In this document: piece by piece, positions 1,005 through 27,828 of the stretch
How positions within the stretch are numbered: the first letter of the stretch is position 1
Layout: each line of letters opens with the position of its first letter
From: a virus
Direction: 5' to 3' (one strand)
IMG/VR virus record: IMGVR_UViG_3300006802_000425
Span: 1 to 27,828 of that record
Length of the DNA stretch: 27,828 nt
Program-made: the position numbers and the translations under genes
The notes under the pieces: generated by a model
Told to the model about the DNA's origin: nothing
Databases searched by the model: none
Seen by the model: only the letters and a program-made list of their open reading frames with translations

Positions 1005-2158
1005 TATCTATCCCTATTAAAATATCCTGTCCAACTATATGCACCTACAGTTGAAGACGTTGAACCAGTGCCGTCTACTGTAATAACTACAGCATGCCTG
1101 TTTGATGTTGCGTTTGGCATTTGCACCATTAAGTTGCCTTGATTCAAGCAACCCCATTTATTCTGACCACTGGGCATAATAGTAGTTGGGTTAGTGGTTA
1201 TAGTATTAGTATCTACATCAATCCACATGCCTGTTGACCATGGACCGCAATACACATTACCATCTGGACCCATCGTGGCTCCCATTACTTTTGTGCCAGT
1301 GCCTAAACTAGTCATTGTGTTTGCTGATGGATCTAGTGTATATACTGTGCTAGTTCCATGTCCAGTCATATATAAATTACCATTCTTAGCATTGGTAATA
1401 CCTTGACTTGTTTGTGCTCCAAATGTAAAGCCATAAGTTTGCACTTCTGCTGTGTCAGTATCAGGATCAATAATTAATACGCTTCTGTTATTACTTGGTC
1501 CACCTGTATTATAAGGTGCGGCATATAATTTGTCATCTTCAATTGATCTTACACCACTAACCCATTTAGCCCCATTAGTGCCTAAGGTACCTAATCCTAA
1601 ACTGCTGGTTGTAGCAGTGTTTGATGCAACATTATAAACAAGAGCGACATTAGGTGTGCCAAGAGCATACAATTTATCATCTGCAGACATGCCTAATTCA
1701 TAAGCAGGATTACTAAATGTTAATCCCCAGTTCTGTAATTCAAAACTGTTAGTATCTGGATCAAATATCATAACACTGTCCATATTGTATGGCCACCAAT
1801 AAATTCTATTGTCAGACCCTAAGTTACCTGCGACAAATCGTATTGATCCTGTTAATGTTAAGCCTGATGAAATCTCTTGACTACTACCAGTAACAGGATC
1901 AAATTCCAATATATTATTTGTTGCTTTTGAACCAGGTGCACCATATACCTTACCATTAGGATGAGCAACAAACCCAGCGTATGCTAAACCTATACTCCAA
2001 ATACTGCTACCTATATCATAAGTTGTGTAACTGCGACTACCAGTTAAATCCCAAGTGCTAACAACAGGTGAAATATCTGCGCCAGTGAGATCCTGCCAAT
2101 CAGGCGGCTCTGGCACCACATACTGACCTAAAAATCCACCTCTAGCAGCAAACGGCAT
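1004..2158 (-). CDS. Beta-propeller distal adhesin
   Basis: The 384-residue protein shows six or seven repeats of about 45-50 residues with the pattern (D/N)-G/D-K-(V/I/L)-Y followed by a hydrophobic strand and F/I-D-P-x-T. Examples: NGKVYGAP...LEFDPVT (68-90), DNRIYWWP...MIFDPDT (116-136), DDKLYALG (160-167), DDKLYAAP...IIDPDTD (208-235), NGNLYMTG...TLDPSA (259-279), DGNVYCGP...DVDTN (299-318). This is the layout of Kelch/NHL/SMP-30-like beta-propellers. Coming after the long fibre with a TAATG junction, it is a likely receptor-binding tip or fibre-bound adhesin. No enzymatic residues were identified. Confidence 0.75.
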   Translation of the reverse strand: MPFAARGGFLGQYVVPEPPDWQDLTGADISPVVSTWDLTGSRSYTTYDIGSSIWSIGLAYAGFVAHPNGKVYGAPGSKATNNILEFDPVTGSSQEISSGLTLTGSIRFVAGNLGSDNRIYWWPYNMDSVMIFDPDTNSFELQNWGLTFSNPAYELGMSADDKLYALGTPNVALVYNVASNTATTSSLGLGTLGTNGAKWVSGVRSIEDDKLYAAPYNTGGPSNNRSVLIIDPDTDTAEVQTYGFTFGAQTSQGITNAKNGNLYMTGHGTSTVYTLDPSANTMTSLGTGTKVMGATMGPDGNVYCGPWSTGMWIDVDTNTITTNPTTIMPSGQNKWGCLNQGNLMVQMPNATSNRHAVVITVDGTGSTSSTVGAYSWTGYFNRDR

Positions 2159-5100
2159 TATGCGTATCCTGTGCTTAATGTTGAATAGTATGTGCTACCA
2201 TCGTAGAACACACTTATGATATCAATATCCCCAGTATTTGTGCTTAATGTTTTACTAGCACCAGCAAATTTCATACTGCTTGTTAGTGTGCCAGTTGTAG
2301 CACCTTGTGTAATAATAATTGTAGCACTTGTGCCAGCAACAGCATTGGTTAAACTGTTAATAGTTAAACCACCACCTGTTGTAACTTGGAATATAGTGCC
2401 TGTGCTTACATCTAAGTTAGCAGCAATATCACCACTTAGTGTGCCTAAACTGACCACAGTCTCGTTAAATTTTGTTAATGAAACATTACTTGCACTAAAA
2501 TTACCAGTATAAGCACCAATAGCAGTGTTTGCTAGATCAGTAAATTTAGATGTAACACCAACATTGTTTGAATCACCTATTATGATATTGCCTTGATTAA
2601 CATTGTAAATGTCATTAGATCTCGAGGCACCGGCCACATTAATTGTGTTGCTGTTTGTTACAGTTGCTATTTTTTGAACAAGATTGCCTTCACCAGTTGG
2701 TCTGGTTTCTGTGAATGTGCCTGAGCCATTAACATACAATGAAGCACCTATGGTAAATCCATGTGAACTAAAGTTCATTTTACCACTGATAACCACTTCA
2801 CCTGTTTCATTAGGAGCAATGTTGTTTTTAACAACACCAAAGCCTGGCATTAATGATGCATTGCCGCTGTCTGCTAACACAACATCTGGTGTATCACCAT
2901 GGTTATTACCATTTAGTGCAACAATATCACCTTTGTTTAATGTGCCACCTGATGCGTTCCATATCTCAGCCTGAATAGCACCATTAATATCGCCATCAAA
3001 TCGTGTAGTAGCAATTATGTAATTGGCTTGAATATTGCCAGTTGCAGTAATGTTGCCTGATTCAAAACTAACAATATTAACATCATCTTCTTTAAGTTCA
3101 AGCGTGTCACTGGTTTCACTTAGTTCAAAACTATACTTCTTAGGTGTGTGGCTTGGAGTAATATCATACTCTAGAAGTGGACACGGAAATGGCAATGGTG
3201 TGGCTGTTGTTAATCCTCTACCCACCCAACTTGTTCCTGTTACTGTGGCCCAAGTTAGCGGAGTAGTTAATCCACTGTCCTCAAATACACCATAATATAC
3301 TTGGTTAGTGAAAGTTCTTCCTCTCTTTAGATATCCAATATTACTATTATTGGTCCAAGTAACTAAGTCTTGCGTAAGACCATAACCTGTTCCAACGAAA
3401 TAAACTGGTGTTGCATCAGCAAGAGGTTGATTACCTAAATAATTTATACCAATAACAACCGTATCAGCATCTTCTGCGATCTGACCATATGTGCCACTTG
3501 CAACGTATTGCCAGCCCCAATCAGGTAGTCTTGCTTTTGATCCTACACGGCGGTCTAATTCAATAACCATATCACCAACAACAGGTTGAGCATTACCGCC
3601 ATTATGACCGCCATTAGTAACAGTTAAACGGCTACCACTGTCAACACTCACATTAGCACTGTTCATTTCTACCCAAGTGCGTTTGGTTTCACTAGTCCAG
3701 TTACCTCTTGTGCCTTTACCTTGAACATTCATGAAATTTTCAGCAACAGGACCTATAATAACAGGTTTGCGTGTTTCACCTGAAGGTTTATTAGAACCTA
3801 AATATAATCCACCATCTTCATAAGTTAAGAAAGTATCACGAACAAATTTATTAGCCGCATTTACAGTATCAGGTCGGCTATTAGCAACAAAAGACATATT
3901 TGTTTTGCCACCGAAACCACCATCAGTCCAATCTTCACCTGCGGATACTGATATATAAGCACTTGGTATTAGTTCACCACCAGGTAAAGAACCACCACCA
4001 TAACTGGTCCAACCAATCTTACCTAATTCTTGATTGTCTCTTGCATACCAACCTGTGCTTGGTTCATTTAGATTACCATTATAACTTCTAAATAATAATT
4101 CTGCAGCACCATAATCTAGACTGTTTTCCTGGCGTGTTAAATCAGTAAAATTACCAATTTGTAGTCTTGGAATGAATGAATTTTGGCTACCTGATGATGC
4201 TGAGGTTATTGTTCCAAAGTCATCAGCATATGGTGTAATACCATCATAACCTAAACTAATACCAAAACCTGAATAACCATTATCAAACATTTGAGTTGTT
4301 GTTAGTGTGTTAGCACCTATAACCAATCCATCTTTAATACCAAAGTAAGTATTTTCACTGCTTATTAAACTAACTTTACCTTGTGTATAATGAGCATATG
4401 ATCTAAATTTAGACGCACTCATATCTAAACTATAATCACTGCTACTACCCACAGTGTAAGTGAAGTCGCCTGCTACAGGACCACTTATTGGATAAGCATA
4501 CACATTAGTTGAAAGCATTTTACAAGGACCAACACTTGCACGACTACGAGCACCACCATACACATCATATTCACTTAAAATACCAACTAAGAATCCAGTA
4601 TCAGTATCACGCATTGTGTTCATGAAGAAACTGTTGTTACCATCTAAATTATTATTAGCCTGTGTGCTGCTAAATTCAAAGTCACTGGTTGCTGGATTAT
4701 TCATTGTAACAGTTAAATTACCTGTATCAATTGATGTAATATATGTTCCAGCAGGGAATGGAGTTTGTGTTCCTTCTGTGCCACCATCACCTAATGTAAA
4801 ACTGTTGTAAAAACCACCTAATGCTCTTGTATGATACATTGGTGCCATACCTGGAACAATTTCATTAATTAATGTAGCAATATTGCCAGTGCCAACAATT
4901 GGTTTAGTCCAGAATAAAGGTGGTGTTGTAGAGTTAGCAACATATCTGTATTCTTCCATACCTGTTAATTGAATTGTAGCACTACCACTTACAACATTAC
5001 CTGTAAAACATAGTGCATTTACATCACTGGTGCCTGAGTATGTTATAAGTCTTGTAGAAGTAAGTTGGTTAAAACTACTTGAAGGTTGTGCTTTTGTATA

Positions 5101-7560
5101 ACCATAACCGCCTGTCATATTAAGCACATCAGTTGCTGTTTGATCTGCACCTAACGCTTCAGTAAATGTAAAGCCACCAACACCATCACCAAGTGATATT
5201 TTGTTTAGACTTTCTGCCTGCACACTGTTAACATTAGCAAGTGCGTTAGCAAGACTGATTACACCACTGTTAACAAGAATATTTTCACTGCCCACAACAT
5301 AGTCATCAATTGCAGTGTTTGCACGATCAGTTGTGAAATATAAGTTAGAACCTTCAGTTAAGTCTGATGTTGTTTTAGTTGTTAACCAAGTATCACTAGC
5401 ACTGTTTGCTCTATCAGTAGTGTAATAAAGATTTGTATTACCTTCTGCTAAGTCATCTGTGGTATTAAGTGCTAAGTTAGCAGTAGCAGAGATATTACTT
5501 AATCCGCCGCCATCACCACTAAAGTATGTGGCTGTTATATTACCCGCTGTGTTGATATCACCTTGATACCCACCAATAGCACTATTAGCACGGTCGGTTG
5601 TGAAGTATAAGTTAGAACCTTCAGTTAGATCTGATGTTGTTTTAGTTGTTAACCAAACATCACTTGCACTATTAGCACGATCAGTAGTAAAGTATAAGTT
5701 ATCACCCTCATCAATATCAGTTGTAGTTAAACTTTCACTAATAATTCCATTAGCAAAATTGATATTGCCACTGCCACTAACATATGTTTCAATAGCAGTG
5801 TTTGCTCTGTCAGTTGTAAACCAAACATTACCAGTGCCTTCTGTTAAGTCATCTGTTGTATAAGCAGTGCTACCAGCAACAGCAATATTAGCACCACCAA
5901 AACTTAGAACACCACCAGCGGCTGATATAGCAGTGTCATCTAAATAAATTGAAGTGCCGCTTAGATATAAGTCTTTCCAACGATTGTTAGCATCGCCAAG
6001 TGTGTATACACTATTTGCACTGGGCAGTATATTTCCGCCTACAGTTAAATCATTTGAACTAATGTAAGCCATTACTTCAGCATTGGTTAAGTGTCCTGGT
6101 ATATTGCTTAATCCACCGCCATCACCACTAAAGTATGCGGCTGTTATATTACCCGCTGTGTTGATATCACCTTGATATGCACCAATAGCAGTATTTGCTC
6201 TATCAGTAGTGTAGTAAAGATTTACATTACCTTCAGTGATTTCATCTGTACTACTAATTGCCGCACTAATATTTGACCAACTTACAATACCATTAGCATC
6301 TGTTAATAATATTTGATTATTAGACCCTCTGACATTAGGTAGAATAAAATTTTCATTAGCATTCACATTACCAATACTAACATTTCCATTTACATCAACA
6401 CTGAATATTTCATATCCAGTGTTTAATGCATCAACAGTGCCTAACCATTTAATTCTAAATTTAGAACCGGTACCATAATTTATGAAAGGTCTTAGATTAA
6501 CTACAACGTTAGCATCGTCACCTACAACAAAATGTTGACTTGGTGCCCCACCATCAAATATATGAGATAATATTTCAAAGTTGGCAGATCCATCGGCATC
6601 ACCATCTATTTTAACCCTAACGCCTGACTCACTATATATTGATAATGGGTTACTATCGCCCAATTTAAGAATTTGAGGTATATCACTACTATCTGTAAAT
6701 ATTAATGTGCCTAGACTTGTGATATTACCTGATACGGTATGATCTGTATTTAGATATGTTGTAATAGCAGTATTAGCACGATCTGTAGTATAATAAAGAT
6801 TTACATTACCTTCTGCTAAGTCATCTGTGGTTTTTCCTACAAATGGATCATAAGCATCAAAACTAACTAAACTACCAAAATAAGTTGTACCATCATAGAT
6901 AATATTTAATATTGTTTCACTATTAGCGGTTTGAGTTAAATTAGTAACAGCGCCTACGAATTCCCAATCTACCCATTCTAGATAATATGTAACAGTATCA
7001 ATATCGTGATTACCTGTTACATCTTGTGTTAGAATTAAAGTTATTGTTTCACCAGCACTGATATCATTAATGTCTAGTTTTGTAATATTACTAGTAAGAG
7101 TAAGTTTTTGTGTTTTACCATTACCAATATCTAATGATACATTACCACTTACACTACCAGCATCATAATAAGTTTCTAAATTTAATTCTGTTGTATCAAT
7201 TCCAATCTCACCAGTTATGCTATTATATGTGATTGGACTTGCATTTGATATTGTAGTTCTTATATCTGCTGTGCTTACACCAGTATATTGTATTATACCA
7301 TTTGAAGTTGGGCTATTATCATATGCTAATGATCCATACCCACTTTCATTTGAAACACTTATTTTAGTTCTTACTTCTGCATTACCTACACTGCCTATTT
7401 GTGATACAGTAATATTAGAAATTGTTGAACTTACATTGATATTGCTTTGAGTCGTGCTAACATTAGTGACCCAAACATTGCCTTCACTTACTGTTATATT
7501 AGAAGTTGTTGTTGCGACATTTATTGCTGTATTAGCAACATTAACATTTACATTGGCCAT
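2158..7560 (-). CDS. Giant tail fibre protein (1800 aa)
   Basis: This is the largest gene, Asn-, Thr-, Gly- and Ser-rich and low in Lys, Cys and Met, as in extended trimeric fibres. The N-terminus is a low-complexity strand (NVNVANTAINVATTTSNITV) that probably attaches to the tip. From about residue 243 to 750 it holds seven copies of a unit of the form T.DL.EG.NLYYTTDRAN.A, a repeat known from many phage fibres. Between them are GDGGGLSNI-type segments. The middle and C-terminal parts carry non-repeated beta-rich domains, probably the receptor-binding head. The C-terminal 280 residues contain GTLNKGDIVALNGNNHGDTP, followed by repeat-like LANTAIGAYTGN. No catalytic (depolymerase) motif was recognised. 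Its stop overlaps the next start (TAATG). Confidence 0.8.
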   Translation of the reverse strand: MANVNVNVANTAINVATTTSNITVSEGNVWVTNVSTTQSNINVSSTISNITVSQIGSVGNAEVRTKISVSNESGYGSLAYDNSPTSNGIIQYTGVSTADIRTTISNASPITYNSITGEIGIDTTELNLETYYDAGSVSGNVSLDIGNGKTQKLTLTSNITKLDINDISAGETITLILTQDVTGNHDIDTVTYYLEWVDWEFVGAVTNLTQTANSETILNIIYDGTTYFGSLVSFDAYDPFVGKTTDDLAEGNVNLYYTTDRANTAITTYLNTDHTVSGNITSLGTLIFTDSSDIPQILKLGDSNPLSIYSESGVRVKIDGDADGSANFEILSHIFDGGAPSQHFVVGDDANVVVNLRPFINYGTGSKFRIKWLGTVDALNTGYEIFSVDVNGNVSIGNVNANENFILPNVRGSNNQILLTDANGIVSWSNISAAISSTDEITEGNVNLYYTTDRANTAIGAYQGDINTAGNITAAYFSGDGGGLSNIPGHLTNAEVMAYISSNDLTVGGNILPSANSVYTLGDANNRWKDLYLSGTSIYLDDTAISAAGGVLSFGGANIAVAGSTAYTTDDLTEGTGNVWFTTDRANTAIETYVSGSGNINFANGIISESLTTTDIDEGDNLYFTTDRANSASDVWLTTKTTSDLTEGSNLYFTTDRANSAIGGYQGDINTAGNITATYFSGDGGGLSNISATANLALNTTDDLAEGNTNLYYTTDRANSASDTWLTTKTTSDLTEGSNLYFTTDRANTAIDDYVVGSENILVNSGVISLANALANVNSVQAESLNKISLGDGVGGFTFTEALGADQTATDVLNMTGGYGYTKAQPSSSFNQLTSTRLITYSGTSDVNALCFTGNVVSGSATIQLTGMEEYRYVANSTTPPLFWTKPIVGTGNIATLINEIVPGMAPMYHTRALGGFYNSFTLGDGGTEGTQTPFPAGTYITSIDTGNLTVTMNNPATSDFEFSSTQANNNLDGNNSFFMNTMRDTDTGFLVGILSEYDVYGGARSRASVGPCKMLSTNVYAYPISGPVAGDFTYTVGSSSDYSLDMSASKFRSYAHYTQGKVSLISSENTYFGIKDGLVIGANTLTTTQMFDNGYSGFGISLGYDGITPYADDFGTITSASSGSQNSFIPRLQIGNFTDLTRQENSLDYGAAELLFRSYNGNLNEPSTGWYARDNQELGKIGWTSYGGGSLPGGELIPSAYISVSAGEDWTDGGFGGKTNMSFVANSRPDTVNAANKFVRDTFLTYEDGGLYLGSNKPSGETRKPVIIGPVAENFMNVQGKGTRGNWTSETKRTWVEMNSANVSVDSGSRLTVTNGGHNGGNAQPVVGDMVIELDRRVGSKARLPDWGWQYVASGTYGQIAEDADTVVIGINYLGNQPLADATPVYFVGTGYGLTQDLVTWTNNSNIGYLKRGRTFTNQVYYGVFEDSGLTTPLTWATVTGTSWVGRGLTTATPLPFPCPLLEYDITPSHTPKKYSFELSETSDTLELKEDDVNIVSFESGNITATGNIQANYIIATTRFDGDINGAIQAEIWNASGGTLNKGDIVALNGNNHGDTPDVVLADSGNASLMPGFGVVKNNIAPNETGEVVISGKMNFSSHGFTIGASLYVNGSGTFTETRPTGEGNLVQKIATVTNSNTINVAGASRSNDIYNVNQGNIIIGDSNNVGVTSKFTDLANTAIGAYTGNFSASNVSLTKFNETVVSLGTLSGDIAANLDVSTGTIFQVTTGGGLTINSLTNAVAGTSATIIITQGATTGTLTSSMKFAGASKTLSTNTGDIDIISVFYDGSTYYSTLSTGYA
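5312..6833 (-). repeat. Seven-copy fibre repeat region
   Basis: Seven degenerate copies of a unit around EG.NLYYTTDRAN.A are spread over this part of the fibre gene. Within it, 5492-5580 and 6101-6189 are 89-bp copies with only five differences, pointing to a recent internal duplication. Confidence 0.85.
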
Positions 7561-17822: not shown

Positions 17823-18308
17823 TTAAAGCGTGTTCTTAGTTAGATCACCGTTTACAACGATTTCAATCGGACTCAACCAAACTGCTTGGTCGATTGAAGC
17901 ACTTGGTGCTAATCCACTAATAAATCCTTGACCGCTTAGGTAGTATCCACCACTGCCGTTTGTACCACCTTCGAACGCAACACTAAAGAATACTTCAGTT
18001 TTACTGTTTGAGGTTGTCCATAAGCCATTGGTAGCAACAGTGTTATCTGTAACACCAGCATTACCAAAGAACGCATCGTCGTCCACTAACATAGTACCAC
18101 TTACACCGTTTTCAACTACAGTAGTATAAGCACTTGATGCTGTACTATCTAAAGTTGAATATCTTACAGTGCCGGGACTGGTTGTTAATGTTATGTCCTG
18201 CATCAGCGGGACAGAAAATGTTGATGCATTATCGGGTTCGGCTAAAGTACTACTATTACCTAAGCAAAGGATCGCTTTATTACCACTTGTGACATTAATT
18301 ACTGCCAT
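17823..18308 (-). CDS. Major tail tube protein
   Basis: The 161-residue beta-rich protein resembles tail tube proteins of long flexible tails. It starts MAVINVTSGNKAILCLGNSS and has paired strands (SVPLMQDITLTTSPGTVRYS), an acidic loop (TMLVDDDAFFG), and a Gly-rich hairpin (FEGGTNGSGGYYLSGQGFIS) ending in PIEIVVNGDL, as tube proteins commonly do. It forms stacked hexamer rings around the tape measure. Position, length and a strong ribosome-binding site fit. The terminator directly downstream would raise its level relative to the chaperones and tape measure. Confidence 0.85.
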   Translation of the reverse strand: MAVINVTSGNKAILCLGNSSTLAEPDNASTFSVPLMQDITLTTSPGTVRYSTLDSTASSAYTTVVENGVSGTMLVDDDAFFGNAGVTDNTVATNGLWTTSNSKTEVFFSVAFEGGTNGSGGYYLSGQGFISGLAPSASIDQAVWLSPIEIVVNGDLTKNTL

Positions 18309-18321
18309 GTTTTTATCTCCT
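18302..18321 (-). promoter_or_regulatory. Translation initiation region of the tail tube gene (shared 20-mer)
   Basis: These 20 bases are identical to those in front of the major capsid gene (20184-20203), including AGGAGATAAAAAC and the first codons ATGGCAG. They overlap the stop of the upstream gene. Confidence 0.7.
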
Positions 18322-19284: not shown

Positions 19285-20190
19285 TTAAGCGCCTGCGTCA
19301 GGTAAGTTGTTGCTGCGGAAGAATACCGCACCGGCTGCCTGACCAATTAAGCCCTGAAGTAATGCTCTATTACCTACATCACTCAATGAACCAATGGTAT
19401 CACCACCAGCAAGAGCGATCTGCTGTTGAATTGCATATTCGAACGCAGGATCAATTACTGCTACATACTGACCACCGGCCATAGTAGGAGCATTTTGTGT
19501 GCGTAAGTTAGCAACACCTTTTGCAATCGCTGTAATGTTAGCAACAGCAGTACCTACACCTTTTGCGGATGTAACACGCTGACCGAAGCCTGCACGAAGT
19601 GCAGCAAAGCCTGCTCTTACAGTACCACGCATTTCATGTGCGTCACTATTTGGGTTGAACCACATTTTAACAGTTGGCTCACGCTTTGCAGCGTATGCTA
19701 ATGCTTCTGGGCTCATTACAAAGTTAACAACGAAATCGCTGTTTGTTCCACCTTCACCTGTATCAGTGTGAGTAGTGAAAGCAGTGTTAGCAACACCAAA
19801 ACCTTGACTGTCAACAGCAAGGGCAAGAGAACCAGCAAAGCGAGTTAATACTGCGTTGCGAACCATGTCCATACCGCCGTCTTCTAATGCTTCTTCTGTT
19901 ACGTCTGTAGCAACACCGAATTTGCTAACTGTGATGTTAGCCGCTGTTGGTACTAAGTTTGACTGATGTCCAGTACCGATGATTGATGCACCTTCTGCAA
20001 CAGAAGTTGCTTTACTCCAACTGTTAGTTAGAGGAATGCGTAATGTATCACCACTCTGACCAGAGATGGTGTAACTATTTGTGATGATCTGCTGATTGGG
20101 TAGCAATACTGCGTCCATATAGTAAGGAACTAGATCCGCTACGATGTCAGCATATAGTTGTTCAATTGAACTACTTGATGTACCTGCCAT
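19285..20190 (-). CDS. Major capsid protein (HK97-fold type)
   Basis: The 301-residue protein forms the icosahedral shell. The N-terminal helix region (SIEQLYADIVADLVPYYMDA) is followed by a beta-rich E-loop-like segment (DTLRIPLTNSWSKATSVAEG) and TVSKFGVATDVTEEALEDGG, a pattern seen in N4-gp56/P22-like capsid families. The C-terminal part has YVAVIDPAFEYAIQQQIALA, then GQAAGAVFFRSNNLP, typical of A-domain ends. The codons look more GC-rich and regular than those of the fibre genes, as expected for high expression. It lies directly after the scaffold gene and has the strongest ribosome-binding site in the operon. No decoration protein gene was seen nearby. Confidence 0.9.
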   Translation of the reverse strand: MAGTSSSSIEQLYADIVADLVPYYMDAVLLPNQQIITNSYTISGQSGDTLRIPLTNSWSKATSVAEGASIIGTGHQSNLVPTAANITVSKFGVATDVTEEALEDGGMDMVRNAVLTRFAGSLALAVDSQGFGVANTAFTTHTDTGEGGTNSDFVVNFVMSPEALAYAAKREPTVKMWFNPNSDAHEMRGTVRAGFAALRAGFGQRVTSAKGVGTAVANITAIAKGVANLRTQNAPTMAGGQYVAVIDPAFEYAIQQQIALAGGDTIGSLSDVGNRALLQGLIGQAAGAVFFRSNNLPDAGA

Positions 20191-20203
20191 GTTTTTATCT
20201 CCT
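20184..20203 (-). promoter_or_regulatory. Translation initiation region of the capsid gene (shared 20-mer)
   Basis: AGGAGATAAAAAC precedes ATGGCAG. The 20 bases are identical to 18302-18321 in front of the tail tube gene. It gives a strong ribosome-binding site with 7-8 nt spacing ahead of the two proteins needed in the highest numbers. Confidence 0.7.
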
Positions 20204-23650: not shown

Positions 23651-23909
23651 CTGTGTTTCCTGTGTCTCTGTGATTTACATTCTTGCGGTCACCGCCAAAT
23701 ATTCTATCCCAATTGTCGTTATACTTTTGCTGATCTACTGGGCGATATTGACTGCCTTTACCTGCGGCACTGCTTTTATATCTATGTGCTGGCTTTTCTA
23801 ATTCTTCACTAATATCTCGTGCTTGTTTAAGTGCATTATTAGTGTTGATTGTTTTTTCATTCTTTACCCATTGTGTACTGCCTTTCTCTGGTACTTTACT
23901 TTTCTGCAT
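23619..23909 (-). CDS. Small hydrophilic phage protein with GKG...RPVD...WDRIFG motif
   Basis: The protein is 96 residues, highly hydrophilic and without membrane segments. Residues 50-72 read GKGSQYRPVDQQKY followed by NDNWDRIFG. From memory, this GKG-x-x-RPV-x(n)-Y-x-x-x-[WY]-DRIFG pattern recurs in small proteins of many phages, including marine ones, whose function is not established. The C-terminus is rich in Asp, Asn and Lys and probably disordered. AGGAATAAGAT precedes the ATG at good spacing. The next gene overlaps its 3' end by 32 bp. A DNA-binding or early regulatory role is possible but not shown. Confidence 0.7.
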   Translation of the reverse strand: MQKSKVPEKGSTQWVKNEKTINTNNALKQARDISEELEKPAHRYKSSAAGKGSQYRPVDQQKYNDNWDRIFGGDRKNVNHRDTGNTDDSKDTKDNL

Positions 23910-23918
23910 ATCTTATTC

Positions 23919-24122
23919 CTATAACAGTATATTCTTTTGTTTATTGCGTGGTTCTATTTCATTACCATAACCTGATAACAATAATAATATTGCGGCAATG
24001 AGCCACCATGGTGAAATTAGTTGAAGCATACAACCCCACAGTACGCTGAGTCCTGTGAGTGTAAGCGTGTTGAATATATTTGTTTTGTGACTACTTTCTT
24101 TATTAAAGTCTGGCATCTTCAT
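23919..24122 (-). CDS. Small two-helix membrane protein
   Basis: The 67-residue protein has two adjacent hydrophobic stretches, about residues 17-36 and 38-53, separated by a short SPWW turn, with a charged N-terminus and a basic, Asn-rich C-terminus. This layout is compatible with a hairpin membrane protein such as a class II-like holin, but no lysozyme or spanin gene is adjacent and no family was recognised. The start codon lies inside the 37-bp repeat (GAGGAATAAAGAT then ATG), giving a good ribosome-binding site. Before the glycosyltransferase was inserted, this gene would have followed the methyltransferase directly. Function remains open. Confidence 0.65.
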   Translation of the reverse strand: MKMPDFNKESSHKTNIFNTLTLTGLSVLWGCMLQLISPWWLIAAILLLLSGYGNEIEPRNKQKNILL

Positions 24123-24155
24123 ATCTTTATTCCTCTATAAACCATTCTTCAGGCA
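24119..24155 (-). repeat. 37-bp direct repeat, copy 1 (glycosyltransferase 3' end)
   Basis: This is a perfect copy of 24764-24800, offset by 645 bp. It encodes the end of the glycosyltransferase (EEWFIEE, stop), the ribosome-binding segment GAGGAAT, and the true ATG start of the small membrane protein at 24122. Confidence 0.95.
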
Positions 24156-24750
24156 AAATTGCTCTTTTATCTAACATTTGTTTTTTTGCTTGTGCATATA
24201 CAGTCTTTCTGTGAGTTCTATCCTTAAACATTAAACTGCCTACATCTTGACTTTGTTCACGCAGAAATACTGTGTGCAGCATTTGCGTTCTTATACCCTG
24301 ATCATTACACTGTTTAGCCCAGTCAATATCTTCTAGAGCAAGCAATGCCTCATCTTGATAAGGTATATCTTTATTAGCGATAACATACAGTTGACTTATT
24401 TCTGTAGTATCACTCCAATGATGGACACCATCATCCCAACCTGTGCTGTTATACCTTAGTATGCCCATCTTGTGATTACTGTTTAATGTATACACACTAT
24501 TAAATACAGGATTCTTTAACCATTCACCTGTAAGATAACGATGAGGATAAAGTGTGATGTCATCATCAGCCATTATCAAGTAGGTTCTGTTTGATTCTTT
24601 GTAATCCTTAATAATCCTGTTGCGGCCCACAGCAGGTAGATAGCCTGTATTATCCCATAATACAGTTTCCCAACCCTGCGCTTGCCACCAAGCAACAGTT
24701 TTGTTTGTGATATGCGCTCTACCTTCATGTGTAAGCAAATCTATACGCAT
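24127..24750 (-). CDS. GT-A-like glycosyltransferase
   Basis: The 207-residue protein looks like a small nucleotide-sugar-dependent glycosyltransferase of the GT-A fold. A GRNRII segment (42-47) is followed by a hydrophobic strand ending in MADDDITLYP (60-69), the DxD-type metal and nucleotide-sugar site. LEDIDW (139-144) fits the acidic acceptor or catalytic-base region. The RN...DDDI pattern recalls the glycosyltransferases associated with phage DNA base hypermodification, but no TET/JBP dioxygenase or nucleotide-modifying gene is present, so a DNA, capsid or host-surface acceptor are all possible. The ATG at 24750 is fixed by an in-frame stop just upstream. It has no close Shine-Dalgarno and may rely on reinitiation from a 5-codon ORF. 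It ends LPEEWFIEE, like the preceding methyltransferase, and lies between 37-bp repeats, suggesting it was inserted as a unit. Confidence 0.65.
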   Translation of the reverse strand: MRIDLLTHEGRAHITNKTVAWWQAQGWETVLWDNTGYLPAVGRNRIIKDYKESNRTYLIMADDDITLYPHRYLTGEWLKNPVFNSVYTLNSNHKMGILRYNSTGWDDGVHHWSDTTEISQLYVIANKDIPYQDEALLALEDIDWAKQCNDQGIRTQMLHTVFLREQSQDVGSLMFKDRTHRKTVYAQAKKQMLDKRAILPEEWFIEE

Positions 24751-24763
24751 TATAATTTATTAC

Positions 24764-24800
24764 TCATATCTTTATTCCTCTATAAACCATTCTTCAGGCA
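24764..24800 (-). repeat. 37-bp direct repeat, copy 2 (methyltransferase 3' end)
   Basis: The 37 bases are identical to 24119-24155. They encode the last codons of the methyltransferase tail (EEWFIEE), its stop, the GAGGAAT ribosome-binding segment and an ATGA start. Here that ATG opens only a 5-codon ORF (MSNKL) ending in TAATG, which overlaps the glycosyltransferase start. With copy 1 it brackets the glycosyltransferase gene exactly. Confidence 0.95.
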
Positions 24801-26055
24801 GTTTGTGGCCTGCTGTATCTGTTTTCTCTTTCCAGGCTTGTATGCGTGTGTTAGCAATCTTTACATAAGCAGGGTCTAACTCACAACCTGTGAATTCACA
24901 GCCTAACTCAACTGCCGCCATACCTGTGCTTCCTGAGCCTGTGAATGGATCTAATACTTTACCGCCCTGTGGTGTGACTAACTTGATGAGATAACGCATA
25001 AGTGCTACTGGCTTAACGGTGGGGTGGTTGTTGCCTAACATAGTAGATTTACGCTTTTCTATAAATGTTTTTTTGCTTGGATCACATTTACTATGATCGT
25101 TAGTACCATTTATTGTTTTCTTACAATCATCACAGAAGGGTGTTTTACCCATTACATTTATACCGTGTGTTTCATTCTTGCCCAAGTCTTTGTTATGCTC
25201 TTCAGGTGGTGCTTCAAACCCACAGTGGCGTTCTGCTCTGCTCACTTTAGGACAATAAAAGAACTTTTGGTAGCCTTCTACTTCACCTAACACATTTGAG
25301 GGGAATCTACCTTGTTCATTGGTCGTTGTTTCACCTTGCCATTTGTTGGGATCTTGTTGATTGAACTCCAATCTGTCCATCCCGTTTGCTGGGTATGTTA
25401 GTGTTTCACTTTCAACCCTCGTAGCATCAATATTGAGTGCTCCAACACCGTGCTTTAACACATTGGCTATGGTGCTGCCTTTCATTGGCTTGCGGGCCAT
25501 CACTATGGGCTCGTGTGCTGGTTTTAGTGCTGTTTTCCAACCAGCCCATTCTGATTCTATAGGTGGTGATTTGGCATTACATAATCTATCACATTGACTT
25601 GGAGGATATGTCATATTAGCATCACATTCAATACAATAAGGAGTAGTATGATTGACACTATTCTTTACTGCTCTTGTATCTGCGTGTTTATGTTTATGAT
25701 ATGTGTATTTCTTATCCTTTCCTTCTCTTTTGTCTATGCCTTTGCCCACATCCTGTGCTTTAGGAAAGCCTGAACTATACAACCACATAAGTTGATCACG
25801 GATCTCAAATCCTACACCTTCTATGTTGGTTGCTAAGTGATGATAAGTTCTTGCGGCACTAAAGGCCAATAAGAAGCCACCTGGCTTAAGCACTCTAAAA
25901 CATTCTTGCCAAGTCTCTACTGCTCCGGTGTTCTTGTCCCATTCTTTGGCTAAGAACTCTATACCATATGGTGGGTCTGTGACAATGCTGTCAAAATGAT
26001 TGTCTGGGTAAGACTTTAATATATCTATATTGTTGCCATTTATTACTTTATACAT
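24772..26055 (-). CDS. DNA methyltransferase (DPPY type) with cysteine clusters
   Basis: This is a 427-residue site-specific DNA amino-methyltransferase of the beta class. DPPYG (residues 27-31) precedes HPTVKPVALMRYL (344-356) and the SAM-binding LDPFTGSGSTG (368-378). Middle-region segments GRFPSNVL (249-256) and FFYCPKVSRAERH (265-277) are typical of a family common in phages. Two cysteine-rich inserts are notable: C141/C144/C155/C159, and C308/C311/C324 with nearby His. They look like zinc ribbons and may belong to the target-recognition part. The N- and C-terminal catalytic blocks are intact, so the enzyme should be active. The C-terminus is LPEEWFIEE, identical to the end of the glycosyltransferase downstream. 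The recognition sequence is unknown; self-protection or epigenetic regulation are both possible. Confidence 0.9.
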   Translation of the reverse strand: MYKVINGNNIDILKSYPDNHFDSIVTDPPYGIEFLAKEWDKNTGAVETWQECFRVLKPGGFLLAFSAARTYHHLATNIEGVGFEIRDQLMWLYSSGFPKAQDVGKGIDKREGKDKKYTYHKHKHADTRAVKNSVNHTTPYCIECDANMTYPPSQCDRLCNAKSPPIESEWAGWKTALKPAHEPIVMARKPMKGSTIANVLKHGVGALNIDATRVESETLTYPANGMDRLEFNQQDPNKWQGETTTNEQGRFPSNVLGEVEGYQKFFYCPKVSRAERHCGFEAPPEEHNKDLGKNETHGINVMGKTPFCDDCKKTINGTNDHSKCDPSKKTFIEKRKSTMLGNNHPTVKPVALMRYLIKLVTPQGGKVLDPFTGSGSTGMAAVELGCEFTGCELDPAYVKIANTRIQAWKEKTDTAGHKLPEEWFIEE

Positions 26056-26071
26056 ATCTTCATATCTCCTA

Positions 26072-27319
26072 TTAAGCCCTATAAGAACCTGTATTTCTTC
26101 TTATCTGTTGTCCTACCGATTGTATATTTTGTTTAACTGGATATATTCCATTTACCATATAACCTAATGCGTCATTAAAATGTGAAAAGTCTTCAGCACC
26201 ATTCTTTTCCGGTTGGCGTGTACCCTCAATGTATGTATGCTTTTGTAAGCCTTCTATTATTTTACGACACTTAGGATCTATTGTCAAGCGTACTATGCCA
26301 TTAGCACTTTTACAAGCGGCATTTACACTTGCTATACGATCCTTTACTGCTGGATTAATTGAACCTACACGCAATTCAAATCCTGCGTTCTTTAATATGA
26401 TATGATCTGTTATGCCACCTATAGCGGAGGAACGATGTTGTGCTCCGCTTGCATCAGGAAAGCATATAATCTTTCTACCTGGATAACGCATCTGTATTTC
26501 TCGTGCCATCTCTTGTGTATCCGAACCGTATAGTGCTATTTCATCAAATATGTGTATACCTTGTTGATGTTGATATGCTACTACAGCACATAGTGGAAAA
26601 TAGTTAAAGTCCATTCCCACATACAATGGCATACGGTTGTCGTTGGGTAATTCTCTTGTTATTATGTTATGGTCGCCAAACGCATAGTAAATCTGATTCT
26701 CTAATTCTATCCACTCGGCTAGGAACTCTTGTTTGAACTCTCGCTCACCCATTGTTTGGCGTGCATTTTCTATTTCTTCTGGATCAACAATACCACCTTC
26801 GGCTGTGGTGTAAGTATGACATAACCAATCCGGATTGTTTTTATTGTTATGGAAAAGGTCCCACAACCATCCTTTTCCTTTTGGTGTTGATATGATTAGT
26901 GCTGTGCCTCGTTGGTCTGCTAGTGCTGGTCGTATTACTTCATAAAATAATTCTTCAGCACAGTCTGCGGCTTCATCTATTACGCAATGACTTATTGAGA
27001 GTCCTCTTAAACGATCTGGATTGTCAGCGGAACGCAACATTATGATTGAACCATTTACTAACTCTATTTCTAAATTACTTTCGTTTATTTTCTTTACCCA
27101 ACGCTTGTCTAATAACATATTTTTAATTGGCTTCCACATGACTTGGCGACACATACCATGAGTGGGAGCAATATATACGCAGGTCTTATTTGGATGTCTT
27201 GCGGCTTTTGCTAAACTTGCTATGCTCATATAACTTTTACCGCCGCGCCGCGCCGCTACTACACAAGCAAAGCGTTTTCCGGAATTGAGTACATATGCTT
27301 GTTGGTGGGTAAGTTTCAC
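26072..27319 (-). CDS. terL: Terminase large subunit (packaging ATPase/nuclease)
   Basis: This is the motor and nuclease that packages concatemeric DNA into the prohead through the portal. The 415-residue length is normal. The N-terminal ATPase has Walker A AARRGGKS (residues 22-29), Walker B VIDEAAD (113-119) with the catalytic Glu, and a coupling motif ISTPKG (143-148). The C-terminal RNase H-like nuclease shows acidic residues in GMDFNY (D237), FDE (D259-E260), FPDASG (D289) and HFNDALGY (D383), the expected metal-binding set. The start overlaps the upstream methyltransferase stop by 4 bp. No small terminase subunit is seen in the window; it may lie further upstream. Only 16 bp separate it from the next methyltransferase, so all are probably co-transcribed. 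Confidence 0.95.
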   Translation of the reverse strand: MKLTHQQAYVLNSGKRFACVVAARRGGKSYMSIASLAKAARHPNKTCVYIAPTHGMCRQVMWKPIKNMLLDKRWVKKINESNLEIELVNGSIIMLRSADNPDRLRGLSISHCVIDEAADCAEELFYEVIRPALADQRGTALIISTPKGKGWLWDLFHNNKNNPDWLCHTYTTAEGGIVDPEEIENARQTMGEREFKQEFLAEWIELENQIYYAFGDHNIITRELPNDNRMPLYVGMDFNYFPLCAVVAYQHQQGIHIFDEIALYGSDTQEMAREIQMRYPGRKIICFPDASGAQHRSSAIGGITDHIILKNAGFELRVGSINPAVKDRIASVNAACKSANGIVRLTIDPKCRKIIEGLQKHTYIEGTRQPEKNGAEDFSHFNDALGYMVNGIYPVKQNIQSVGQQIRRNTGSYRA

Positions 27320-27828
27320 TTTTCTTCAAACCATTGTTCTGGTAGTGGATTTAATCTACTATTAGCAAATTCCACATAATCAACATCTATATCTGTGCCT
27401 ATACCTTGGAGTCCCATACGCTGTGCTACTGCTACTGTTGTGCCTGTGCCGGCAAAAGGATCAAATACTATACCGTTCTTACAGCCGGACACTTTTATAC
27501 ATTTTTCTACAAGTGCTTCTGGAAATATAGCAGGATGTTTGTTTTTACCTTTTATTTGTTCTGTTATTTTCTTTGTGGCAAGACTTTTATATGTGTAGTG
27601 CCAGCAAGTTGTAGTTGGACGCCAAGTTTTGCCTGTTCTTCTTGCGTTCTTTTCTGGTGTCCCGGTTGCTGAATAAGGCACACCACTACCTTCTAAATCT
27701 ATATCTGTATTACCTTCTGCTGTAAAGTGGAATAAATGTTCCCATCCGTTTTGTAAATATCTTGTGCTGCTTGTGGGTGTTGAGTATCCTCTAACATATC
27801 CATCAATTTCCACTGCCTTTGCCCATAT
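27316..27828 (-). CDS. DNA methyltransferase, beta-class (N4-C/N6-A), 5' end outside window
   Basis: This is the C-terminal part of an S-adenosylmethionine-dependent DNA amino-methyltransferase. The frame stays open to the window edge (codons reading IWAKAVEIDGY), so the GTG at 27813 is probably not the true start and the catalytic DPPY motif should lie outside the window. Visible family features are a WEHLFHF segment, a KHPAIFPEALVEKCI segment (motif X-like) and the SAM-binding motif I FDPFAGTGTT followed by GTDID. DPPY preceding motif I is the order of the beta class. The stop overlaps the terminase start by 4 bp (ATGA), indicating translational coupling. The protein ends LPEQWFEEK, which resembles the ends of two other enzymes in the window. 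The target base and sequence cannot be read. It could protect phage DNA from host restriction. Confidence 0.85.
   Translation of the reverse strand: MWAKAVEIDGYVRGYSTPTSSTRYLQNGWEHLFHFTAEGNTDIDLEGSGVPYSATGTPEKNARRTGKTWRPTTTCWHYTYKSLATKKITEQIKGKNKHPAIFPEALVEKCIKVSGCKNGIVFDPFAGTGTTVAVAQRMGLQGIGTDIDVDYVEFANSRLNPLPEQWFEEK

Follow-up and report, generated by a model that had tools for sequence, protein, structure and literature searches.

How did a gene for a predicted glycosyltransferase come to lie, alone, between two identical copies of a 37-bp sequence that ends one phage gene and leads into the next? The locus belongs to a viral DNA of 27,828 nucleotides (IMG/VR record IMGVR_UViG_3300006802_000425, positions 1 to 27,828), the whole of which was analyzed and is called the window here. 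The genes at the locus, all on the minus strand, are ordered terminase large subunit (terL), DNA methyltransferase, glycosyltransferase (GT), and 67-residue membrane protein. A preliminary description of the window had proposed that the GT gene is a one-gene cassette. The features concerned are the following.

23919-24122, minus strand: gene for a small membrane protein of 67 residues, right border of a variable slot; conserved, with relatives in many contigs.
24119-24155, minus strand: repeat copy adjoining the membrane-protein gene; GT tail codons, stop codon, Shine-Dalgarno sequence (24130-24135), and ATGA, the start of the membrane-protein gene.
24127-24750, minus strand: GT-like gene of 207 residues, judged inserted from the alignment of its relatives; DDD at residues 62-64.
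24750-24767, minus strand: 5-codon open reading frame (ORF), MSNKL-stop, whose TAA shares bases with the GT start (TAATG) and which may serve as a leader for reinitiation.
24764-24800, minus strand: repeat copy adjoining the methyltransferase gene; last codons, stop codon, Shine-Dalgarno sequence (GAGGAA at 24775-24780), and ATGA.
24772-26055, minus strand: beta-class DNA methyltransferase gene, 427 residues, C terminus KLPEEWFIEE (N6_N4_Mtase, E=2.3e-33; PHROG_67, E=1.7e-69).
26056-26067, minus strand: AGATATGAAGAT, directly 5' of the methyltransferase start; the same 12-mer stands at the membrane-protein gene start.
26072-27319, minus strand: terL, left border of the variable slot (PHROG_2, E=1.2e-49; Pfam Terminase_6N).
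27316-27813, minus strand: 3' part of an upstream DNA methyltransferase gene (Pfam N6_N4_Mtase, E=1.7e-24), 268 residues in L001.

The copies at 24119-24155 and 24764-24800 are identical at 37 of 37 bases and lie 645 bp apart, start to start, as first described. With up to 3 mismatches allowed, the sequence gave 2 matches in the window and 0 in 100 shuffles, which rules out a chance origin. Read on the minus strand, either copy is TGCCTGAAGAATGGTTTATAGAGGAATAAAGATATGA, that is, (L)PEEWFIEE and a stop codon followed by AGAT and ATGA; this bears out the early reading of an EEWFIEE-stop, a ribosome-binding segment, and ATGA. The ATG of the copy at 24119-24155 starts the membrane-protein ORF at 24122, and that of the copy at 24764-24800 opens MSNKL-stop (24767-24750). 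Both copies, at equal spacing, are also present in IMG/VR contigs 3300006637_001248 (L001/L012) and 3300025635_000366 (L013), which differ from the window by 6 single-nucleotide polymorphisms (SNPs) over 4603 bp and 5 over 13547 bp, respectively. None of these SNPs lies in 23803-26213, so none falls in the repeats, the GT gene, or the methyltransferase gene. Since three assemblies with SNPs between them carry the repeat pair, the concern that it might be an assembly artifact is ruled out. A search of IMG/VR for the 27-base tail core found it only in two contigs of the same phage, and the excised, GT-less form of the 37-bp junction was not found there. The bracketed DNA holds the GT gene alone, with no transposase (ORFs and Pfam/PHROG family searches) and no inverted-repeat pair around it, and family searches found no recombinase or integrase among the genes of the region. 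The proposed absence of a transposase or integrase at the site therefore holds.

GT relatives were found in seven other contigs and are 69 to 76% identical over the aligned proteins. They align over residues 2 to 190 only (2 to 196 in L010). The relatives in L003-L010 end soon after the aligned part, without LPEEWFIEE, and have a leader of 13 to 14 residues before RIDLL (e.g., MTFADWFDVPQTGN) that is missing from the GT in the window. Because the tail is absent from all GT relatives, an origin within the GT family is ruled out. The methyltransferase and the GT, unrelated neighbors, both end in LPEEWFIEE. By these alignments, the GT gene is an inserted gene with an acquired methyltransferase C terminus; the absence of the tail in its relatives and the existence of GT-less relatives support the single-gene insertion that had been suggested.

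The GT is likely to transfer a sugar, as predicted from several lines of comparison. Its DDD at residues 62 to 64 lies inside a conserved MADDDITLY and is compatible with a DxD motif. Its scores against TAGT (PF20691, 15.5 bits) and Glyco_transf_21 (PF13506, 14.5 bits) are below the curated cutoffs of 27.5 and 21.7, respectively, and a second family search gave no family score; the likeness to TAGT, a family of TET-associated glycosyltransferases, serves as no more than a lead. The structure model is only fair (mean pLDDT of 64), with a disordered tail (pLDDT below 50). In a fold search with this model, the best matches were nucleotidyl- and galactosyltransferases of the GT-A type, at weak E values of 0.003 to 0.007. 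The GT had no match among cultured phage records and nothing beyond short partial matches among genomes.

The tail itself is at home among methyltransferases. The upstream DNA methyltransferase (27316-27813) ends in PLPEQWFEEK, overlapping the terL start, and variants occur on both methyltransferase types, including LPEQWFTTGE, LPDQWFEEE, LPAEFFEE, LPTEWFTEE, and LNTEWFEEV, among others. The distinct tail-bearing ORFs number 14 and consist of 12 DPPY methyltransferases, the GT, and one FkbM gene. Since related methyltransferases carry versions of the tail and GT relatives end before it, the alignments show transfer from methyltransferase to GT, in line with the earlier view that the repeat is the 3' end of the methyltransferase gene. 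The codons for PEEWFIEE double as a Shine-Dalgarno sequence (GAG GAA), and the following ATG comes a few bases past the stop; other phages also have tail codons (GAAGAA, GAGGAA) that stand before or overlap the next start, and nearly all tails adjoin a start codon. The broader tail pattern was met in six more contigs, without a further convincing graft. The structure model of the methyltransferase was unusable (pLDDT of 37).

The methyltransferase is mobile too, because the enzyme in L020 is 91% identical over residues 3 to 171, although terL there, which it follows, is only 41% identical. In L017, the same methyltransferase family is placed elsewhere, between p54 and portal. AGATATGAAGAT, with at most 1 mismatch, has only 2 matches in the window versus 0.30 expected, and was considered as a 12-bp repeat trace of methyltransferase insertion. 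This candidate was weakened by its being the native methyltransferase start context in L045 and L052; AGATATGAAGAT also resembles the conserved start of the membrane-protein gene.

The region between terL and the membrane-protein gene was compared across 142 nonredundant loci, a set completed with membrane-protein and portal scans. Directly abutting terL and membrane-protein genes occur in 16 contigs, which include near-duplicates, and in many others the slot holds one or two small ORFs. In L045 and L052, terL, a methyltransferase gene, and the membrane-protein gene follow one another without a GT gene, and the junction consists of tail, Shine-Dalgarno sequence, and ATGAAAATACCAGA, the layout also found in the copy at 24119-24155. 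This is the state that loss of the GT gene would restore, and the clean methyltransferase-to-membrane-protein junction foreseen in the preliminary description is thus present in related phages. Other contents are p56-GT (L008), p56-p190-GT (L007 and L128), a sulfotransferase-like gene (L032, and before the membrane-protein gene in L127 and L117), and FkbM, methyltransferase, and p56 genes (L136), next to methyltransferase plus GT in the window. The insertion of the GT gene has therefore separated genes that adjoin each other in related phages. Comparing relatives from terL to portal, as had been advised, did reveal contigs without the GT gene and other single genes in the slot, but the repeats at the junctions differ. 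No near-isogenic GT-less sister was found; the GT-less relatives with a methyltransferase are distant (terL, ~57%).

In L007, L008, and L128, the GT gene stands directly before the membrane-protein gene, without a methyltransferase and without the repeat. A GT gene with nonrepeated flanks in all related genomes had been named as an observation against a cassette; it does occur in these three, but the GT tree favors separate arrivals. Because the tree places the GT of the window outside the clade that joins the L007/L008 GTs with those of unrelated phages, with moderate support (86/83), it is likelier that the GT genes of the window and of L007, L008, and L128 arrived independently at one hotspot. 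The order of arrival in the window depends on this moderately supported tree, since these three loci have GT next to the membrane-protein gene without repeats.

A comparable event is preserved in a near-isogenic pair, L127 and L136 (IMG sample identifiers 3300006919 and 3300025818). Their left flanks are identical at 142 of 142 bases and their right flanks at 1800 of 1805, and they differ by one gene, over 581 bp. The 25-mer AAGGAGAAATAATGAAAATACCAGA, made up of the Shine-Dalgarno sequence and stop of p56 and the start of the membrane-protein gene, occurs once in L136 (1868-1892) and twice in L127, where it brackets the sulfotransferase-like gene (L127:118-723); in IMG/VR it is confined to these two. 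This pair lends weight to the idea of a one-gene cassette with a duplicated junction. Gain of the gene in L127 appears likelier than the alternative, loss in L136, because p56 adjoining the membrane-protein gene without a sulfotransferase-like gene is widespread in outgroups. The sulfotransferase-like protein starts MKIPD and the membrane protein MKIPE; part of the repeat in L127 is Shine-Dalgarno/start sequence that may already have been on the incoming gene. The C-terminal FKEK of the L127 protein is not claimed as an upstream-gene scar, as that of its relative L169 ends NIFKEQ.

Other one-gene differences have shorter repeats. The p190 indel (L007/L128 versus L008) and the sulfotransferase indel (L117 versus L149) have almost none, and a 73-residue ORF indel (L146 versus L145) is flanked on either side by ~10 bp, ATGAAAGCAA. 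Comparable insertions thus have junction repeats of about 0, 10, 25, and 37 bp, with different sequences. Their common feature is position: the last codons and stop of the upstream gene and the Shine-Dalgarno sequence and start of the downstream gene. The window and related loci contain 38 exact nontandem repeats of at least 17 bp, and in 8 of these each copy falls on the start of a same-strand ORF, against 0.28 expected. The FkbM methyltransferase gene of L136 (L136:160-981; E=6.7e-19) ends in LPEQWFIEQ and overlaps the start of a second methyltransferase gene; at its position, L120, L056, and L057 have a methyltransferase ending in LNTEWFEEV. The FkbM ending is another tail scar, carried by an unrelated enzyme.

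Further rearrangements and repeats were seen in this material. The near-identical contigs L056 and L057 differ by a replaced stretch upstream of the methyltransferases (L056:347-2065; 1719 versus 320 bp). L165 has repeats of 19 to 33 bp (CTCCTAATTAAATAATATACAACTATTATACCA...) at 5621-7400 and 7783, before several minus-strand genes and with a ACCACTATTCGTGGT palindrome; those of 30 to 33 bp were rejected as cassette ends since they resemble regulatory repeats, and all are probably operator or promoter repeats. In the window, a 20-bp repeat, AGGAGATAAAAACATGGCAG, stands at two gene starts (18302-18321 and 20184-20203; Shine-Dalgarno plus ATGGCAG), a further start-boundary repeat. In-frame repeats (LYYTTDRANTAI-like motifs) at 5290-6840 lie in an 1800-residue ORF (2158-7560), perhaps a tail-fiber-like protein with repeated units.

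We consider it probable that short-homology or illegitimate recombination brought the GT gene into a resident junction between the methyltransferase and membrane-protein genes and so duplicated the 37-bp junction. Both residents would need this stretch, which encodes the methyltransferase C terminus and stop and, in the same bases, holds the Shine-Dalgarno sequence and start of the following gene; only with the stretch duplicated would an insertion leave both intact. We infer a fairly random course of recombination at compact junctions, from which the forms with the stretch duplicated survive. The repeat would then be a record of selection for intact gene ends, and a recombinase site would not be required. 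The scar would be the methyltransferase tail joined in frame to the GT, and the tail may persist since it contains the Shine-Dalgarno sequence of the membrane-protein gene. The GT gene has no evident Shine-Dalgarno sequence near its own ATG, and the 5-codon ORF has a good one and ends in TAATG; for this reason, the GT is probably translated by reinitiation. The 5-codon ORF does exist but may not be useless, as it had been called, because its stop overlaps the GT start. A bolder proposal, that the junction upstream of the membrane-protein gene serves this phage group as a dedicated and reversible slot for exchange, its stop/Shine-Dalgarno/start sequence, borne by every incoming gene as a terminal scar, being a self-renewing homology handle for phage recombinases that swap single modification genes (GT, FkbM, sulfotransferase, DNA methyltransferase) in and out, seems to us unlikely.

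Entry could also have taken two steps: the GT would have replaced the body of a methyltransferase in a donor phage, keeping the tail, and homologous recombination inside the tail would then have joined GT and tail to the present methyltransferase. Such a state is seen in L136, whose tail-ending FkbM gene lies directly upstream of another methyltransferase gene. However, this route needs two events, no GT with tail but without an upstream methyltransferase was found, and the tail core in IMG/VR is restricted to this phage; we regard it as credible but the less likely course. In the reverse order, GT and membrane-protein gene would have been the residents, the methyltransferase would have entered upstream, and its 3' end would later have been copied onto the GT. 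The arrangement in L007, L008, and L128 and the mobility of the methyltransferase seen in L017 speak for this order, but it is improbable given the position of the window GT in the tree and the occurrence of the methyltransferase next to the membrane-protein gene without a GT, and it leaves both the loss of the GT leader and the gain of the tail unexplained. The LPE[EQ]WF tail might instead be a functional C-terminal peptide, such as a docking tag, that the GT and FkbM proteins acquired for that function, as its conservation in two methyltransferase types and its in-frame presence on two unrelated enzymes might suggest. This is very doubtful: the repeat runs on past the stop codon through noncoding bases to ATGA, the position of the codons at the next gene's Shine-Dalgarno sequence explains their retention, and the tail is disordered in the GT model, itself only fair. 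That a gene cassette recombined at the 37-bp sequence in a conservative site-specific manner, an option that had been offered beside short-homology entry and would fit a perfect repeat bracketing exactly one gene in a slot used by several single genes, is extremely improbable, because the repeats at other insertions vary in length (~0 to 37 bp) and sequence and thus have no constant core, no recombinase was found in the region by family searches, and the tail core was not found outside this phage. Short-homology or illegitimate recombination is therefore the favored part of that earlier claim.

Mosaic junctions of phage genomes are mostly too old to reveal how a gene arrived; this one is fresh enough. 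The sequence needed by the neighbors is duplicated, the newcomer is scarred, and a near-isogenic pair of the same phage group shows the site empty and filled. These features suggest that repeat length is set by the needs of the neighbors, which is testable in other phages.

The anatomy has precedents. In mycobacteriophage Island3, the adjacent genes 67 and 68 differ in their bodies and have a common 3' end of 60 bp, encoding 18 C-terminal residues; in Brujita, its close relative, there is one recombinant copy only, and the authors liken the event to boundary-sequence recombination (PMC3029335). The window likewise has neighboring genes with a common 3' end. The Island3 repeat is longer and the phages and genes are others, and, unlike that case, the present slot has received several more single genes and offers a second near-isogenic pair. 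Extra DNA in LRRHood is flanked by 29-bp direct repeats at a gene 3' end that is single copy in Cali (PMC3029335); that insert of 1.35 kb carries four genes, one of them for a repressor, whereas the one described here is one gene of ~0.6 kb. As in both cases, direct repeats at gene ends (methyltransferase and GT) flank the insert; a close relative with a single copy is seen for L127/L136, and for the window the only GT-less relatives with the methyltransferase are the distant L045 and L052. Like phage morons, the GT gene occupies a place where related phages have the two flanking genes side by side; unlike them, it shows no terminator of its own and, in a simple consensus scan of the surrounding coding strand, no promoter-like site, and its GC content (0.376) is within the range of its neighbors (0.355 to 0.41). 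Start-Associated Sequences of Cluster K mycobacteriophages and boundary sequences are short repeats at stop, Shine-Dalgarno, and start sites and possible recombination sites (PMC3203893); the present repeats also lie at gene junctions but differ from junction to junction, with no single consensus. Flexible single-gene modules are reported for cryoconite phages that are otherwise near-identical; among the known genes, orphan methyltransferases are the most common (PMC7468147). The window presents a well-resolved new example of the published anatomy of mycobacteriophages Island3/Brujita and LRRHood/Cali.
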